Translations under genes and position numbers: made by a program
Source: Desulfovibrio sp. DV
GTDB lineage: Bacteria > Desulfobacterota > Desulfovibrionia > Desulfovibrionales > Desulfovibrionaceae
Reading direction: 5' to 3'
Assembly (NCBI RefSeq): GCF_001936595.1
Contig: NZ_MLBG01000007.1
Coordinates: forward strand, 1 to 64,000
DNA: 64,000 nt
Part shown: piece after piece, positions 56,950 to 64,000 of the stretch
How positions within the stretch are numbered: the stretch's first letter is position 1
Layout: the number at the start of each line of letters is the position of its first letter
The notes under the pieces: generated by a model
What the model was told of the DNA's origin: nothing
What the model saw: the letters and a program-made list of their open reading frames with translations, nothing else
Databases searched by the model: none

Positions 56950-58248
56950 CTACAGCTTGCTTAAGATGTTGTCGTCGATCCAGTGCTGGTCCCACCACTC
57001 GATGGGCGAGGTTTCCTGGCCATCGACCAGGACGCCAAAATGGAGGTGGTCGCCGGCGGCCAGGCCGGACACGCCGGTTTTGCCGAGAACTTCCCCTTTC
57101 TTGATGTCCTGGCCGACCTTGACGTCGATCTGGCGCAAGTGGGCGTAGAGGGTCTGCAGGCCCAGGCCGTGGTCGATGATCACGGTTTCGCCGTAGATGC
57201 CGAGAAATCCGGCAAAGACCACCTTGCCGGTATTGGCCGCCGGCACCGGCGCGCCCTCAAGCGAAGCCAGATCCACGCCCATGTGGGTCTGTTGGTCGAT
57301 CTCCCGGTTCTGGTACATATACGTCCGATGGTCGCCGAAACCGGCCCGGGGGGCGGCATTGGGCAGGCGCAGGAAGGCTTTTTTGTCCCAGAGCATGGTC
57401 GGGGCGCTTTTTTTGGCCAGCTCTTTGAGAAACACGCTGTTTTGCCGGCGGATGTCGTTGTTGACCTTGAGGTAAATCTGCAAATTGTCCCGGGTGTCGG
57501 TAATGATGTCGTAGTACTGCGGCATCTTCGAATCAAGGAAGTTGTCGGAGATATTGAGCTTGTCCTGGCGAAACTTCCTGGGGATGGCTTGATAGCGGAA
57601 AGAGGCCACGCCGATGTTGCCGGCCTTGTCCGTCACTTTGACTTTGGGCACGAAGTTTTTGGGGTCCATGTTGTACGGGAACACGTAGAAGCCGAAGTAC
57701 TTGCCGTTCTCAAGCTTGTAGGCCGGGTAAAAGTCGTCGCCAACCACCACGCCGGCGCTTTCCGGGGCTTCGCTGACCGAGAAGGAGACGGCTCCGACCC
57801 CGCCCTGGCGCACGTTGTGGGCCAGGCTGGTCACATCCACCCGGGGCGGCGTGGTGTCCAGGGTGTATTGCCGGGTCACGGAGGTGGTGTTGCCGGCGCC
57901 GAAATTGGCAATGGAGCGGTCGGTGGCGGTGATGGCCAGGGTGAAGGGGCCATCGCGCAGCCCGGCCGGCTCCAGGGTGAATTTTTCCACGGCGTCCCGC
58001 ACGGGATTGGCATAGGTGGTATCGAGCAGGGTGATCTGCTTGTCGGCCTGGGTGACCACGACCTTGGCGCTTTTAAGCCCGGAGCTGGCATCACGAAGGG
58101 TCAGGGTGAATTCGCGCTTGGGCGCGGCCACATCGCTTTCCGGAGAAAGGGCGATTTCCGGTTTGCCCCGGTCGGTGAGCAGCAGATAGCCGGCTGCACC
58201 GCCAGCCAGGGCCAGGATCAGGAAAACGCCGAAAACAAGTCTTTTCAT
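56950..58248 (-). CDS. M23-family metallopeptidase (LytM, active-site residues intact)
   Basis: The 432-residue product has an N-terminal membrane anchor (about residues 3-24), Ig-like β domains and a C-terminal LytM domain with the complete zinc and catalytic set: HMGVD (H322, D326), YAHL (H370) and HLHF (H401, H403). Such enzymes cut peptide cross-links of peptidoglycan in the periplasm. It is the active paralogue of the dead copy at 32124-33500. The start at 58248 is set by GAGAGG 6 nt upstream; an in-frame ATG at 58263 precedes that site. Confidence 0.94.
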   Translation of the reverse strand: MKRLVFGVFLILALAGGAAGYLLLTDRGKPEIALSPESDVAAPKREFTLTLRDASSGLKSAKVVVTQADKQITLLDTTYANPVRDAVEKFTLEPAGLRDGPFTLAITATDRSIANFGAGNTTSVTRQYTLDTTPPRVDVTSLAHNVRQGGVGAVSFSVSEAPESAGVVVGDDFYPAYKLENGKYFGFYVFPYNMDPKNFVPKVKVTDKAGNIGVASFRYQAIPRKFRQDKLNISDNFLDSKMPQYYDIITDTRDNLQIYLKVNNDIRRQNSVFLKELAKKSAPTMLWDKKAFLRLPNAAPRAGFGDHRTYMYQNREIDQQTHMGVDLASLEGAPVPAANTGKVVFAGFLGIYGETVIIDHGLGLQTLYAHLRQIDVKVGQDIKKGEVLGKTGVSGLAAGDHLHFGVLVDGQETSPIEWWDQHWIDDNILSKL

Positions 58249-58303
58249 CTTTATCCTCTCCATCAATTGGGCAGGTCACTCCATACCGGCCCGGTCCTGG
58301 CAG

Positions 58304-58339
58304 CGCAAGCCCGGACGATGCGCCGGAGCGGGGCTTGCG
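58304..58339. other. Inverted repeat in the divergent M23 / MscS intergenic region
   Basis: Perfect 9-nt arms CGCAAGCCC (58304-58312) and GGGCTTGCG (58331-58339) flank 18 nt. It is centred between the divergent starts at 58248 and 58403, so it could be an operator shared by both genes or a leader structure. Confidence 0.4.
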
Positions 58340-58402
58340 TCGGATGCGCCGGACGCGCTAGGGTTTTTTGGCTGAAACTATCCAGATGGCGGGAGCATAC
58401 CA

Positions 58403-60754
58403 ATGGGGCGAAGGCAGGCAGGATGGCACAGACTTGGCATTTTTGCATTGTTCCTGGTTCTTGTCTCCGGCCAGGGAACCTTGGCGGCAACGCCGGGCGA
58501 GGATGACCTTTGGCGTTCCATTGCCGAGGGACTGAGCCAGAATATCGCGATCAAGCGCCAGGAGCTGGACCGGATGCAGCAGGATCTGCCCGGGCAGAAG
58601 CTCCTGTGGGCCGAGCACCTGTCCCGGATCAGCAGCCGCCTGGACCAGTTGCTCCTGCTGCGGGGCGTGGCCGGGGACACCCCCTGGGCCTCCAGGACAC
58701 TCCTGCTCCAGTTGGCCGAATTGTCCCATGCCGTCAGCGCCGCCCGCAGTCCCTTGGAGGACATGCAGGACACCCTGGCCCGCACCAAGCAGGAGTACAC
58801 CACCCTGCGCCAGATACGCGCCCAAAATGCCAGCCGGGAGTATGCCGAGCTCGTCAGCGAGGAACTGGCCGGCCCCGGGCATGCCTTTAAGGAACTCAAG
58901 CACGATGTGGACGCGGTCAAGGTCGAGGTGGACGAGGCCCTGGGGCAGGCCGCGGCCTTGTCGACGGATATTGCGGCTGCCCGCACGGATGAGGTCGCCC
59001 GTTTCATCGAGGTGTTTGGCCGAACCTATTTTGCCTCGTCGGGTTCGCTGCTGCGTCCGGCCAATTTGAATGGGATGCTTGATGATCTCAAGGAGTGGGC
59101 CGATGCCGGGCCGCGTTTCTGGGGACCGATTCTGGCCACCATGCCCTGGGGCGCGTTTATCGGCCTGACACTCCTCGACAGTGCCGTGGCCCTGGGGTTT
59201 TTCCGGTTGCTGTTGCGCCGTCGTCCGGACACCTGGCTGCAACTGCGACCGGGGCTCCTCTGGATGGCCCTGGCCCTTGGTCTGTTGGCGGCCCGCTACA
59301 CGCTCCTTTATACCGCCAGCCAGTTCGTTGCCCTGGCCTGGGTCACGGTTCTGTCCTACGGCCTGTTCCGGCTGGCCTCCGGCGGCCGGGTCCTGCCGGT
59401 GCTGTTTGCCTGTTTTCTGGCCAGCGTCGTTTTGGACATGTTCAATGTGCCGGCTTCGCTGGTGTGTGCGCTGTGGATGGCGGTTGCCGGACTTGGAGCC
59501 TGGTGGCTGACCCGGGGCGAGAGTTGCCGTTGTCCGACCTTGTGGCTGCTTGCCGGCGCTGCCGGGGCCAGCCTGTGCGGTTTCGGACCCCAGGCGGTGG
59601 TTGTGGTGCAGGCCTTGTTCATGCTGCATCTGGCCGTGTACATCTCCGGAGCCGTGCAACGGGGCCTTGGCATCCTGGCCGGCGGCCGGGAACGGTCCCT
59701 GGCCCATTTGGCCGAGCCCCTGGCCGCGACCCTGCTGGTGGCCCTCTACATTGCCTGGATGCTCGTATTCATGGGCGGGCCGGGACTGGTGGAATATGTT
59801 TTCACCCTGCATTTCTCCATCGGCAAGGCGGTTGTTTCCCTGGATGCCGTGGCCTGGCTGATCATCAGTTTTTTCCTGCTGCGTCTCATCCAGGCCTGGT
59901 TTCAAGAGGCTCTGGCCTTTGTCAATTTTCGCGGCAAACCCATGGATACGGGACTGGCCCATACCGTTGGCGCGGCCTTTGCCTATGTGACCTGGACGTT
60001 TTTTATCCTGTTCGCCCTGCGCCTGTTTGAAGTGCCGCTCGGGGCGCTGACCTGGATCGCCAGCGGCCTGTCTGTCGGCATAGGCTTTGGCCTTAAGGAT
60101 ATCGTCAACAATTTCATAAGCGGCCTGATCATCATGTTCGGCGGGACGGTCAAGAAGGGCGACATCATCCAGCAGGGCAAAAACCTTGGCGAGGTGGTGG
60201 ATCTGTCGGTGCGAAACACCATCGTGCGCACGCTCGACAACACGACGGTCATCATTCCCAATTCGAGTTTTCTGCGCGGCGAAATCGTCAACCTGTCCTA
60301 CCACGGCACCACCATGCGCCTGACCATTCCGGTGACGGTGGCTCCCGGCACCAAGATCAAGAAGGTCAAAAAGCTCCTGCTGTCCATTGCCAAGGACCAT
60401 CAGGACGTGCTCAAAAACCCGGGTCCGGAGGTCTTGCTGCGTTCGCTTGGCCGGTATGGGCTGGAGTTTGATCTGCAGGTGTGGATCGACAACTTCATCA
60501 AAAAGTTTGCGGTCCAGTCCGAACTGGGCATCATCATTGACCAGACGTTTCAAGAAAATAAAATCCTCGTGCCGTTTCAGGGCGTCAAGGTCAAATACAA
60601 GCCCAAGGGTACCGAGGAGATGCAACTGGAGGCCAGCCGGGAGGCCTTGCGGCAAAAGCGGGGTCAGGTGTTTGGCCGGGTGCGGCTGTTGCGCCGGGTC
60701 CATGCCAGACGCCGCTGGCCGGTGGCGGCGGCAGTGGCCGCAGGGGAGGAATGA
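58403..60754 (+). CDS. MscS-family mechanosensitive channel, large form
   Basis: The 783-residue product has a signal peptide, a long helical periplasmic domain (about residues 35-215), about ten membrane helices, and a C-terminal MscS core. The core reads GFGLKDIVNNFISGLIIMFGG (pore helix TM3 and the conserved β-domain start) followed by RNTIVRTLDNTTVIIPNSSF and the α/β cap. It resembles the KefA/MscK-like multidomain channels rather than minimal MscS. It opens under membrane tension to release solutes on osmotic downshock. The ATG at 58403 follows GGGAG. Its TGA overlaps the start of the ligand-gated channel gene downstream (ATGA). Confidence 0.93.
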   Translation: MGRRQAGWHRLGIFALFLVLVSGQGTLAATPGEDDLWRSIAEGLSQNIAIKRQELDRMQQDLPGQKLLWAEHLSRISSRLDQLLLLRGVAGDTPWASRTLLLQLAELSHAVSAARSPLEDMQDTLARTKQEYTTLRQIRAQNASREYAELVSEELAGPGHAFKELKHDVDAVKVEVDEALGQAAALSTDIAAARTDEVARFIEVFGRTYFASSGSLLRPANLNGMLDDLKEWADAGPRFWGPILATMPWGAFIGLTLLDSAVALGFFRLLLRRRPDTWLQLRPGLLWMALALGLLAARYTLLYTASQFVALAWVTVLSYGLFRLASGGRVLPVLFACFLASVVLDMFNVPASLVCALWMAVAGLGAWWLTRGESCRCPTLWLLAGAAGASLCGFGPQAVVVVQALFMLHLAVYISGAVQRGLGILAGGRERSLAHLAEPLAATLLVALYIAWMLVFMGGPGLVEYVFTLHFSIGKAVVSLDAVAWLIISFFLLRLIQAWFQEALAFVNFRGKPMDTGLAHTVGAAFAYVTWTFFILFALRLFEVPLGALTWIASGLSVGIGFGLKDIVNNFISGLIIMFGGTVKKGDIIQQGKNLGEVVDLSVRNTIVRTLDNTTVIIPNSSFLRGEIVNLSYHGTTMRLTIPVTVAPGTKIKKVKKLLLSIAKDHQDVLKNPGPEVLLRSLGRYGLEFDLQVWIDNFIKKFAVQSELGIIIDQTFQENKILVPFQGVKVKYKPKGTEEMQLEASREALRQKRGQVFGRVRLLRRVHARRRWPVAAAVAAGEE

Positions 60755-61872
60755 TGCGGCGATTGGTCGGGATACTGGTCCTTTGGGGAGTATTGTGTTT
60801 CGCGGTGCTGGCCGGGCAGGGGCGCTGCGAGACGGTTTTGCCCTTGCCTGACCCCTCCCCGGCCGGCAGGAACCTGACGGTGGGCGTCTGTCTTGCCCCG
60901 CCGTTTCTGGAAAAGGACGCCAATGGCCGGTATTTCGGCGTGGCCTATGACCTGTGGACCGATGTGGCCCGGGATATCGGCCTCACCTTCAGCGTCCGGG
61001 AATATAACCTGGAAGGGCTGCTTGAGGCCGTGCGCCTGGGCGCGGTCGATGTAGGCGTCTCGGCCCTGTCGCTTACGCCCGACCGCGAGACGGCGATGGA
61101 TTTCTCCCAGCCCTTTTACTATTCGGGCCTGGGCATCGCTGTGCCGCTCCAGACGGAATCCCTGTTTATGCGGGTGGTTGAGGTCGTTTTTTCCGAGCAG
61201 TTGTTGCTCTACGTCGGATCCTTGGCAGCGCTGTTGCTCGCTGTTGGGGTTTTGATCTGGGCGGTCGAGCGCCGCCGCAATCCCGGCCATTTCCGGCCCG
61301 GCGGCAAGGGCATCGGCGACGGCATGTGGTGGTCGGCGGTCACCATGACCTCCGTCGGCTATGGCGATGCCACGCCCAAGACCCTGGTTGGCCGGGTGCT
61401 GGCCATGATCTGGATGTTCGCCTCGGTCGCCCTGCTGGCCTCGTTTACGGCCGGCGTCACCTCCTCGCTGACCGTTGGGCACCTGCTTGGCCGGGTGCAG
61501 GGACCAGATGACCTGCACAAGGTGCGCGCCGGCGTTTTGACGGACAGTTCGGCCGAAGAAGAACTCGTGGCCAGCCACATCGGCATCCGGCGGTATCCGT
61601 CGGTGGAAGCGGGCTTGACCGCTCTGGTGGATGGCGATCTCGACGCCTTTGTCCACGACCAGCCCATCCTCCATTATTACCAGTACAAGGCTTTCTCCGG
61701 CGATGTCCGCATCCTGCCCGGTTTTTTCGATCCCCAACTCTATGGCTTCGCCTTTCCACGCGGGTCGGCGCTGCGTAAATCCGTCAATGTGGCCATTTTG
61801 CGCCGGCTGGAAAATACTGATTACCGCACCCGGCTGTTCGGGGCGTATTTGGGCAAGCAGGCCGTTCAATAG
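60751..61872 (+). CDS. GluR0-like ligand-gated potassium channel
   Basis: The 373-residue product has the prokaryotic ionotropic glutamate receptor layout: a signal peptide; the first half of a periplasmic solute-binding domain (LTVGVCLAPPFLEKDANG to LSLTPDRETAMDFSQPFYYSG); helix M1 (about 150-171); a pore with the K+ selectivity filter SVGYGD (201-206); helix M3 (212-235); then the second binding-domain half (TDSSAEEELVASHIGI, DAFVHDQPILHYY). Size is close to GluR0 (397). The ligand is probably an amino acid but not readable. It starts at the ATG overlapping the MscS stop (a second ATG follows at 60754), so both channels are made from one mRNA with coupled translation. Confidence 0.92.
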   Translation: MMRRLVGILVLWGVLCFAVLAGQGRCETVLPLPDPSPAGRNLTVGVCLAPPFLEKDANGRYFGVAYDLWTDVARDIGLTFSVREYNLEGLLEAVRLGAVDVGVSALSLTPDRETAMDFSQPFYYSGLGIAVPLQTESLFMRVVEVVFSEQLLLYVGSLAALLLAVGVLIWAVERRRNPGHFRPGGKGIGDGMWWSAVTMTSVGYGDATPKTLVGRVLAMIWMFASVALLASFTAGVTSSLTVGHLLGRVQGPDDLHKVRAGVLTDSSAEEELVASHIGIRRYPSVEAGLTALVDGDLDAFVHDQPILHYYQYKAFSGDVRILPGFFDPQLYGFAFPRGSALRKSVNVAILRRLENTDYRTRLFGAYLGKQAVQ

Positions 61873-62070
61873 CCCTTTTTGGGGAGTGGCGGGCGCTTTG
61901 GGCCAACGCAGCGAATGCCGGCGTTACATCTTGGCGTGTGGGTGGTTAACATCTTGACTTTCAGTGATAACTGGTGGAAACGAACAGTATTTGCCAAGTG
62001 CCTTCATGACGGATGCGCTGCTTGGCGTCTCGCGTCAGGAGTGTGTTTCAAACGAGAGGAGACCGCATCC

Positions 62071-63288
62071 ATGCCTTTTTCCAATTTCCGTCCAGCCGCC
62101 CGGTCCGTTGCCTCCCTTGCCGTCCCTCTGGCCTTGGCCCTGCTGGCGACCGTGGCCGGATGCGATCGACCCAAGCCCCAGGCCGAGAAACCCACTCCGG
62201 TTGAAGTGACCGTCATCGAGGCCAAGCCCGTCACCGCGCCGCTCAATGTCGACGGCATCGGCCATGTCTATGCCGTGCGCACGGTGAGTGTGCGTTCCCA
62301 GGTCACGGGTGTCCTGCAAAAGACGCTTTTTGCCGAAGGCAACGTGGTCAAGGAAGGCGAGTTGCTTCTCGTTATCAATCCCGATTCCTACAAGGCCAAG
62401 CTGGACGAGGCCAAGAGCACCCTGGCTCGCGACAAGGCCACGGCCGCCCAGGCCAAACGCGAGTGGCTGCGCTATAAAGACCTCGTGGCCAAGGCCGTCA
62501 TCAGCCAGGAAGACTATGAGCAAAAGCGCACGGCCTGGCAGCAGGACGAAGAGCAGGTGAAGGTGGACGAGGCGGCCGTGGTCAATGCCAAGGTCAATCT
62601 CGACTATTGCTATATTTATGCCCCCTGTACCGGCGTTGTCGGTTTGCAGCAGTACAAGACCGGCAACCTGATCGAGGCTAATAGCGACATCATCGTCACC
62701 CTCAATCAGATCGAACCGATCAATGTCCAGTTCTCGGTGGCGGAAAAGTATCTGCCCGACATCCGCAGCCACGCCGCCAAGGCGACTCTGGCTGTGGAGG
62801 CCCGCTATCCCGGCCGGCAGGAAGTGGCTGCCAAGGGCACACTCAACGTGATTAACAACACCGTGGACACCAATACCGGCACCATCACGTTGCAGGGTGT
62901 GTTCCCCAATACCGACCGCACCCTGTGGCCGGGCCAGTTCGTGGACGCCACCGTGGTCCTGGCCGACACCGTCGACACCCTGCTTGTGCCCTCAAGCGCC
63001 GTGGCCAACACCCAAAACGGCGTTTCGCTTTTTATCGCCAAGCCGGACAACACCGTGGAAATCCGTCCGGTGACGGCAGGCCGCAAGATCGGGGCCGAGA
63101 CGGTCATCGAAAAGGGCCTGGCCCCGGGCGAGCGGGTCATCACCTCGGGACAGATCAAGCTTTTTCCGGGCGTGCCGCTGACCATTGTCCAGCCGGCCAC
63201 CTACAAGGAAGGCCCGGTTTCTCCGGCTGCCGTGGCCGACAGGGATAAAAACAAGGCCAAGCCTTCCGGGGAAGGTCAGGGGAACTAG
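62071..63288 (+). CDS. RND efflux membrane-fusion lipoprotein (MdtA-like)
   Basis: The 405-residue adaptor has a lipoprotein signal (LALLATVAGC), barrel-sandwich halves (VRSQVTGVLQKTLFAEGNVV; LDYCYIYAPCTGVVGL), a helical hairpin (about residues 105-165) and a β-barrel domain typical of the MdtA/AcrA family (TLWPGQFVDATVVL). The ATG at 62071 follows GAGAGGAG. The 198-nt gap after the channel gene shows GCCAAG/CTTGGC arms (61993-62025) but no clear promoter or operator. It is followed 2 nt after its stop by the pump gene. Confidence 0.92.
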   Translation: MPFSNFRPAARSVASLAVPLALALLATVAGCDRPKPQAEKPTPVEVTVIEAKPVTAPLNVDGIGHVYAVRTVSVRSQVTGVLQKTLFAEGNVVKEGELLLVINPDSYKAKLDEAKSTLARDKATAAQAKREWLRYKDLVAKAVISQEDYEQKRTAWQQDEEQVKVDEAAVVNAKVNLDYCYIYAPCTGVVGLQQYKTGNLIEANSDIIVTLNQIEPINVQFSVAEKYLPDIRSHAAKATLAVEARYPGRQEVAAKGTLNVINNTVDTNTGTITLQGVFPNTDRTLWPGQFVDATVVLADTVDTLLVPSSAVANTQNGVSLFIAKPDNTVEIRPVTAGRKIGAETVIEKGLAPGERVITSGQIKLFPGVPLTIVQPATYKEGPVSPAAVADRDKNKAKPSGEGQGN

Positions 63289-63290
63289 CC

Positions 63291-64000
63291 ATGACCGACC
63301 TTTTCATCAAGCGGCCGGTAGCCACGACGCTGCTGATGGCCGCGCTTATCTTCTTTGGCATTGTCTCCTATTTTTCGCTGCCGATCAGCGAAATGCCGAG
63401 CATCGACTTTCCCACCATCCAGGTGACGGCCTCGCTGCCCGGCGCTGACCCCGAAACCATGGCCTCGGCCGTGGCCACGCCGCTTGAGCGGCAGTTCACG
63501 TCCATTTCCGGCCTGCAGTCCATGAGTTCGTCGAACTCCCTGGGCACAACCACCATTACCCTCCAGTTCGACCTGTCGCGCAACATCGACGGCGCCGGCA
63601 CGGACGTCCTGACCTACATCAACGCCGCCCAGGGCAGCCTTCCCACCAATATGCCGAGTCCCCCGACCTTCCAGAAGGTCAACCCGGCAGACATGCCCAT
63701 CATCTATATCCGCGTCTCCAGCGACACCATGCCGCTGTACAAGGTCACCAACTACGCCAAGGTCTACATCGCCCAGCGCATTTCCATGATCAACGGCGTG
63801 GCCCAGGTGGCGGTCTACGGCGATCAGACCTATTCGCCCCGGGTCCAGGTCAACCCCGACAAACTCGCGGCGCTGTCCATTGGCATCGACGAAGTGGCCA
63901 CCGCCTTCAACAGTGAGACCGTCCTCCAGCCCACCGGCTCGCTCTATGGCGTGGACAAGCTTTTCACCATCAAGGCCCAGGGCCAGCTGACCAGCGCCAC
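63291..64000 (+). CDS. RND efflux transporter (MdtB/MdtC-like), truncated by window end
   Basis: The first 236 residues are present: N-terminus MTDLFIKRPVATTLLMAAL, the first membrane helix, PISEMPSIDFPTIQVTA, DPETMASAVATPLERQF and the first periplasmic porter subdomain (TYINAAQGSLPTNMPSPP). These match the multidrug RND group of MdtB/MdtC rather than the HAE1 pump at 8672. The reading frame is open to the last base, so the gene continues beyond the window. With the adaptor it forms a second, independent efflux system in this region. Confidence 0.93.
   Translation, partial: MTDLFIKRPVATTLLMAALIFFGIVSYFSLPISEMPSIDFPTIQVTASLPGADPETMASAVATPLERQFTSISGLQSMSSSNSLGTTTITLQFDLSRNIDGAGTDVLTYINAAQGSLPTNMPSPPTFQKVNPADMPIIYIRVSSDTMPLYKVTNYAKVYIAQRISMINGVAQVAVYGDQTYSPRVQVNPDKLAALSIGIDEVATAFNSETVLQPTGSLYGVDKLFTIKAQGQLTSA

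Follow-up and report, generated by a model that had tools for sequence, protein, structure and literature searches.

Prokaryotic ionotropic glutamate receptors of the GluR0 type, described from Synechocystis and classed as Group 1, combine a split solute-binding domain with two transmembrane helices and a P-loop (PMC2950845; PMC13099474). The role of these bacterial receptors and the source of their ligand are largely open. A physiological study ties GluR0 to cell volume: the Synechocystis channel supports uptake of K+ in E. coli and has an effect on cell volume, the authors suggest that effluxed glutamate activates GluR0, and their reference list includes papers on efflux through MscCG and MscS (PMC13099474). 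MscS channels of other bacteria do export glutamate (PMC12541555). Here, we analyse a stretch of 64,000 nucleotides from the sulfate reducer Desulfovibrio sp. DV (contig NZ_MLBG01000007.1, positions 1 to 64,000; hereafter the window), in which a gene for an MscS-family mechanosensitive channel (58403..60754, forward strand, 783 amino acids) overlaps a GluR0-type K+ channel gene (60754..61872, forward strand, 372 amino acids, or 60751..61872, 373 amino acids). Both protein families are already known. Unlike the described GluR0 and Group 1 receptor genes, the one in the window, known from sequence and model, lies 3' of an mscS gene and overlaps it. The available text of PMC2950845 and PMC13099474 does not mention an MscS pairing of GluR0-type genes, and no report of a repeated MscS-receptor neighbourhood was found in the open-licence PMC literature, among the matches listed.

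We suggest, with a probability of roughly 0.4, that the two genes form an operon of separate channels serving one osmotic emergency, in which release through MscS would lead to opening of a K+ path in the receptor. Rising membrane tension would open MscS, and K+ and amino acids would pass from the cytoplasm to the periplasm. There, the GluR0-type channel would catch the released amino acid with its binding domain, presumed to face the periplasm, and open a K+-selective path. K+ exit, the presumed direction of flow, would thereby be prolonged, and the membrane potential would be pulled back after the non-selective opening of MscS. The relay combines glutamate export by MscS (PMC12541555) with the suggestion that effluxed glutamate activates GluR0 (PMC13099474); the genome evidence presented here is new support for that suggestion, not proof. 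The safest reading is that the pair encodes two distinct channels that both belong to one osmotic response.

The open reading frames and Pfam agree with an earlier reading of the DNA from its letters alone (the sequence-only reading), which had seen an MscS gene whose stop codon overlaps the start of a downstream GluR0-like gene with a split solute-binding domain and the motif SVGYGD. In the receptor, SBP_bac_3 (2.8e-18) is split across residues 42-358, while Lig_chan (8.9e-15) and Ion_trans_2 (9e-14) match residues 159-259, between the halves of the binding domain. The protein thus consists of a split amino-acid-binding domain flanking two transmembrane helices and a pore loop. The AlphaFold2 model, made with 42 sequences, has a mean pLDDT of 91.8 and places helices at residues 148-172, 184-198 and 211-242. 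A further helix in this model, at residues 2-21, bears on the question of a signal peptide and an outward N-terminus. In Foldseek, the model aligns over the whole chain to AMPA receptors (best E 1.7e-23, 21% identity, TM-score 0.58). The top match in the structural database is the ligand-binding domain 2pyy of a bacterial glutamate-receptor homologue (1.2e-23), followed by glutamine-binding proteins and then by animal glutamate receptors. The K+ selectivity filter SVGYGD (residues 200-205) is encoded at 61351..61368 on the forward strand; V201-D205 is invariant in 20/20 aligned proteins, and GYGD is found in all 20 rows of the receptor alignment (A1), so the pore filter is not lost in close homologues. 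With its GYGD filter and its predicted ionotropic glutamate receptor fold over the whole chain, the window receptor resembles GluR0 and the Group 1 receptors.

Two residues, R111 and D302, align with the ligand-binding domain 2pyy, and each is conserved in 41 of 42 receptors, the window included (alignment A2). They correspond to the positions that bind an amino acid by its carboxylate and its amino group; the window receptor has Ser-Ser where animal receptors have Ser-Thr. The ligand is likely to be an alpha-amino acid, with glutamate itself not singled out. The gating by amino acids proposed in the sequence-only reading fits the window protein, which keeps both residues, and fits less well three paired receptors that have lost the arginine, described below.

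The product of 58403..60754 matches Pfam MS_channel_2nd (PF00924, 4.5e-17, 62.4 bits) and MS_channel_3rd (PF21082, 2.8e-11, 44.1 bits), both over the curated cut-offs. The third transmembrane helix, the beta domain and the C-terminal domain of the MscS core are all present, and PF21088, which covers TM2/3, reaches 20.0 bits, under its cut-off of 23.1. The AlphaFold2 model (mean pLDDT 75.5) shows a long, helical N-terminus with many helices of membrane-spanning length and a C-terminal MscS core. In this respect, the protein is like the long MscS-family channels MscK and MscM, which are also its top NCBIfam and PDB matches. However, it has 783 amino acids against about 1100 in these channels, and the match is confined to the C-terminal part: the closest solved relative, MscK (1.6e-33), covers residues 522-741, i.e., the C-terminal core only. 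The scores of 162.6 bits against the NCBIfam cut-off of 991 for MscK, and 105.3 bits against 809 for MscM, place it in neither equivalog. The likeness to the MscCG and MscS exporters, which pass glutamate (PMC12541555), is one of family membership, and glutamate efflux is the step that a relay would need.

The TGA of mscS occupies 60752-60754, and the receptor gene can start at an ATG at 60751, giving an overlap of 4 bp (ATGA), or at an ATG at 60754, giving one of 1 bp (TGATG), both within 60751..60754 on the forward strand. The start at 60751, assumed in the sequence-only reading, is possible, but the choice is ambiguous; 60754 is likelier because the nearest relative also has ATG there but carries GTG in place of the ATG at 60751. 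A stretch resembling a ribosome-binding site, GGGGAGG (60743..60749, forward strand), lies within the final mscS codons, and similar stretches are found at the junctions compared in the genus Solidesulfovibrio. There, 10 of the 12 readable pairs have overlaps of 4 or 1 bp and 2/12 abut, while in a second genus (g41) 57 to 153 bp lie between the mscS stop and the point in the receptor where the match to the hidden Markov model (HMM) begins. Overlaps of 1-4 bp are often seen in bacterial operons. The junction in the window is of a kind usual in operons and would allow translational coupling. It sets no ratio, so the claim that one mRNA yields the two proteins in fixed proportion is not supported.

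The pair is conserved outside the strain. The receptor was found in 13/14 Solidesulfovibrio genomes, and at 12 of these 13 loci mscS immediately precedes the receptor gene; in G010, the contig contains only the 3' end of mscS. The paired loci also keep an AcrB-type gene downstream and, if the contig extends that far, the divergent M23 gene. In the fourteenth genome (G008, 89% complete), neither the receptor nor an MscS orthologue was found. A search of 247 genomes of the family recovered full-length receptors elsewhere in g41 (3 genomes), g31 (1) and g16 (2), and a divergent one in g25. All three g41 loci are paired with MscS; the receptor loci of g31 (1) and g16 (2) have no MscS neighbour. 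Conversely, the MscS orthologue (E up to 1e-80) is present in 36/247 family genomes, from five genera (g1, g41, g8, g10 and g25), and nine regions around it from g8, g10 and g25 contain no match to the receptor, M23 or AcrB. Within the family, the pairing is thus seen in two genera only, and either gene can occur alone. The ratio of nonsynonymous to synonymous substitutions (dN/dS) is about 0.19 and 0.17 for the two genes (window vs G009), and both are under purifying selection.

These distributions bear on the combined turgor and chemical sensor that the sequence-only reading had proposed, i.e., a physical hetero-complex of MscS and receptor. Frames that overlap or abut in 12/12 Solidesulfovibrio pairs would suit it. 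However, the MscS orthologue stands alone in g8 and g10 and the receptor alone in g16 and g31, the partners elsewhere belong to distinct MscS subfamilies, and one genome (G012, see below) has lost mscS and kept the receptor. MscS heptamers and GluR tetramers are, in addition, separate assemblies. We consider such a complex very improbable, and a combined unit of fixed ratio is unsupported because each gene occurs without the other and G012 kept the receptor after losing mscS. Obligate co-travel of the two genes is rejected by the same genome and by g8, g10, g16 and g31.

MscS recurs beside receptors in other phyla. A collection of species genomes was scanned with alignment A1, the best 80 loci of more candidates were taken, and 18 receptor loci from 395 genomes of the window's phylum were added, which gave 93 loci outside the window's family group. 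Loci L036-L054, which belong to the window's family, and loci L056-L060 were dropped before this count (among the latter, L056, L057 and L060 are paired, while L058, with 193 bases upstream only, and L059 are not). L069, a duplicate of L068, was retained, and L168, a fragment, was excluded from the tree. Flanks extended up to 6 kb a side, many being ended by contig ends, and the expectation was computed on the bases actually available, using a density of 265 MscS in 204.3 Mb from 50 chosen genomes that cover every MscS-bearing locus except three of Pseudidiomarina. An MscS gene was detected in the flanks (up to about 6 kb) of 16/93 receptor loci against 1.2 expected, where the MscS HMM detects weaker members than the Pfam-based density count. 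These loci (L063, L064, L071, L074, L080, L088, L092, L098, L100, L103, L104, L114, L119, L123, L127 and L128) all come from the species-genome scan and none from the phylum sample. By our own grouping on the receptor tree, in which the four Pseudidiomarina loci count as one lineage and L080 and L100 as another, they represent 12 lineages (Poisson P 7e-9). Without L080 and L100, whose Pfam E-values are 1.5e-5 and 2.4e-5, 11 lineages remain (Poisson 7e-8). Twelve of the 16 MscS partners were checked against Pfam and all pass the PF00924 cut-off; the check covered all MscS but the four of Pseudidiomarina and the two of later loci from the family of Thiocapsa. The partner is an adjacent long open reading frame on the same strand in L071 and L123 (MscS first), in L098, L080 and L100 (receptor first), and, over a gap of 0.6 kb, in L114.

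Later sampling added 19 loci. Among 15 new loci from the family of Thiocapsa, two have MscS, one in the Thiocapsa arrangement and one with MscS on the opposite strand, and none of four extra receptor loci has it, these being from the phylum to which the Methylomirabilis locus belongs and from the class of the Thermodesulfovibrionia one. This brings the count to 18/112 receptor loci with MscS against 1.5 expected. The MscS partners share 12-33% core identity, except for a few pairs at 43-84%, and fall into several separate groups of a tree that has long branches and weak inner forks. A single MscS subfamily as partner is rejected by this tree. Because the partners belong to several distinct subfamilies, the neighbourhood looks to have been made repeatedly rather than inherited once.

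Could such a neighbourhood be neutral? A single receptor gene could move and land by abundant genes, the order in Solidesulfovibrio being merely inherited. The genus does conserve the whole block around the pair and not the pair alone, many bacterial operons have such short frame overlaps, MscS is missing at most loci, neighbourhoods are labile, and neither the 18 phylum loci nor the last four loci sampled have it. Chance landing is at odds, however, with an excess of about tenfold over genomic MscS density in 12 lineages. Furthermore, other K+ channels (PF07885) of the same genomes have MscS at 1/46 loci (Fisher 0.007); these controls are the first 60 loci of a longer list, minus 14 with a receptor-type open reading frame, two of which (L235 and L247) had MscS. 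A blind BLAST clustering of the neighbours, from which the receptor and frames overlapping it were excluded on the basis of each cluster representative's coordinates, places MscS at the top with 12 loci, ahead of DEAD helicases (11 loci, in four lineages by our count), RND pumps (7) and CorA (5). RND pumps, more abundant with 450 copies against 265 MscS in the same 50 genomes, show a weaker excess: 7 loci against 2.0-2.6 expected (P 0.02, or 0.13 counting five lineages), so they may also be slightly enriched near receptors. We therefore regard a neutral neighbourhood as unlikely. The above-chance adjacency in several bacterial groups hints at something that bears on receptor function.

Several observations weigh against the proposed relay. 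MscS is absent from the available flanks of 77/93 receptor loci, among which are all 18 that come from other families of the window's phylum. When collapsed to lineages, the comparison with the control channels is only modest (Fisher p 0.03). In the metagenome-assembled genome G012 (L042, 7371-8700), mscS has been lost naturally, while the promoter blocks, the mscS 3' tail, the TGATG and an intact receptor remain. The three g41 receptors (L048, L049 and L050) have L, S or N in place of the carboxylate-binding arginine while retaining the filter and the MscS neighbour, and their ligand may have changed. In the phylum of Methylomirabilis, the receptor DNA of L297 is 96% identical to that of L071 over 1.2 kb only, and L297 has no MscS, so this gene seems to be mobile by itself; MscS is likewise missing at L116 and L089, which the receptor tree groups as sisters of L098 and L100. 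The neighbourhood is, on this evidence from the genomes, labile and easily lost, and most loci do without it. Finally, the phenotype of Synechocystis is K+ influx under a KCl upshock and not efflux after a downshock (PMC13099474).

The last point leads to a different use of the same operon, a shared osmotic regulon without any relay, in which MscS would act in hypoosmotic shock and the receptor in K+ entry or volume control under high-KCl or hyperosmotic conditions, one promoter suiting both. GluR0 of Synechocystis makes shrinkage after a KCl upshock slower, and it restores K+ uptake in E. coli (PMC13099474). That each gene is also found alone, and that Mg2+ transporters are present at some receptor loci, would fit as well. 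By itself, however, a shared regulon leaves unexplained why MscS is the most recurrent neighbour in the clustering, and we consider it quite possible, if short of probable.

The relay from MscS to the receptor could also be read more broadly, with GluR0-type channels as the chemical second stage of MscS, turning a released periplasmic amino acid into a K+-selective current in a partnership assembled many times with distinct MscS. This generalisation is more doubtful. If true, MscS would supply the natural ligand source of these receptors. In any case, the recurring genomic tie to MscS, which exports glutamate elsewhere (PMC12541555), makes the idea that MscS opens the receptor concretely and cheaply testable.

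Upstream of the pair, between the divergent genes, the dyad CGCAAGCCC...GGGCTTGCG (58304..58339) is real, with perfect arms of 9 bp at 58304-58312 and 58331-58339. The sequence-only reading took it for a possible control element. Folded as RNA, the dyad region is no more stable than its shuffled versions (z 0.27). In 11 aligned sequences, CAA is conserved in 11/11, CAAG in 9/11 and CTTG in 10/11. The first arm keeps a fixed spacing to a CATA on the M23 side and the second a near-fixed spacing to a TA block on the mscS side, whereas the spacing between the arms varies within the genus while their cores persist. Because the distances from arm to block hold and the distance from arm to arm varies, two back-to-back promoters, TTGCGC-17-TATGGA and TTGCGT-18-TAGGGT, fit better than one protein-binding palindrome. 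The arms would then likely contain a pair of -35 boxes in opposite orientation, TTGCGC belonging to the M23 gene and TTGCGT to mscS, and the putative promoter of mscS and the presumably co-transcribed receptor gene would be TTGCGT-18-TAGGGT at 58335..58364 on the forward strand, as suggested by the sequence and the conserved blocks. A strict sigma-70 scan of the intergenic region gave no match. A terminator scan of 60600-62100 found 3 candidates against 2.2 expected.

The divergent gene (56950..58266, reverse strand) encodes a Pgp6-like M23 peptidase; it is a neighbour of the pair in two of three g41 loci and, wherever the contig extends far enough, in the genus. On the 3' side of the receptor, the window contains RND efflux genes, an adaptor and an AcrB-type pump (61879-63998), and both the genus and g41 retain the AcrB-type gene. 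Elsewhere, Mg2+ transporter genes are found at receptor loci L098, L104, L128, L068 and L069, the first three of which also have MscS; the cluster representative in L104 is CorA, and L128 has MgtE and CNNM. Loci with Mg2+ transporter, MscS and receptor are possible ion-channel islands. Genes for cytochrome bd oxidase lie near the receptor in L083, L087, L091, L113 and L173 (checked with Pfam in L087 and L113), and tandem receptor genes are present in L169 (5983-8279) and L293 (5983-8323).

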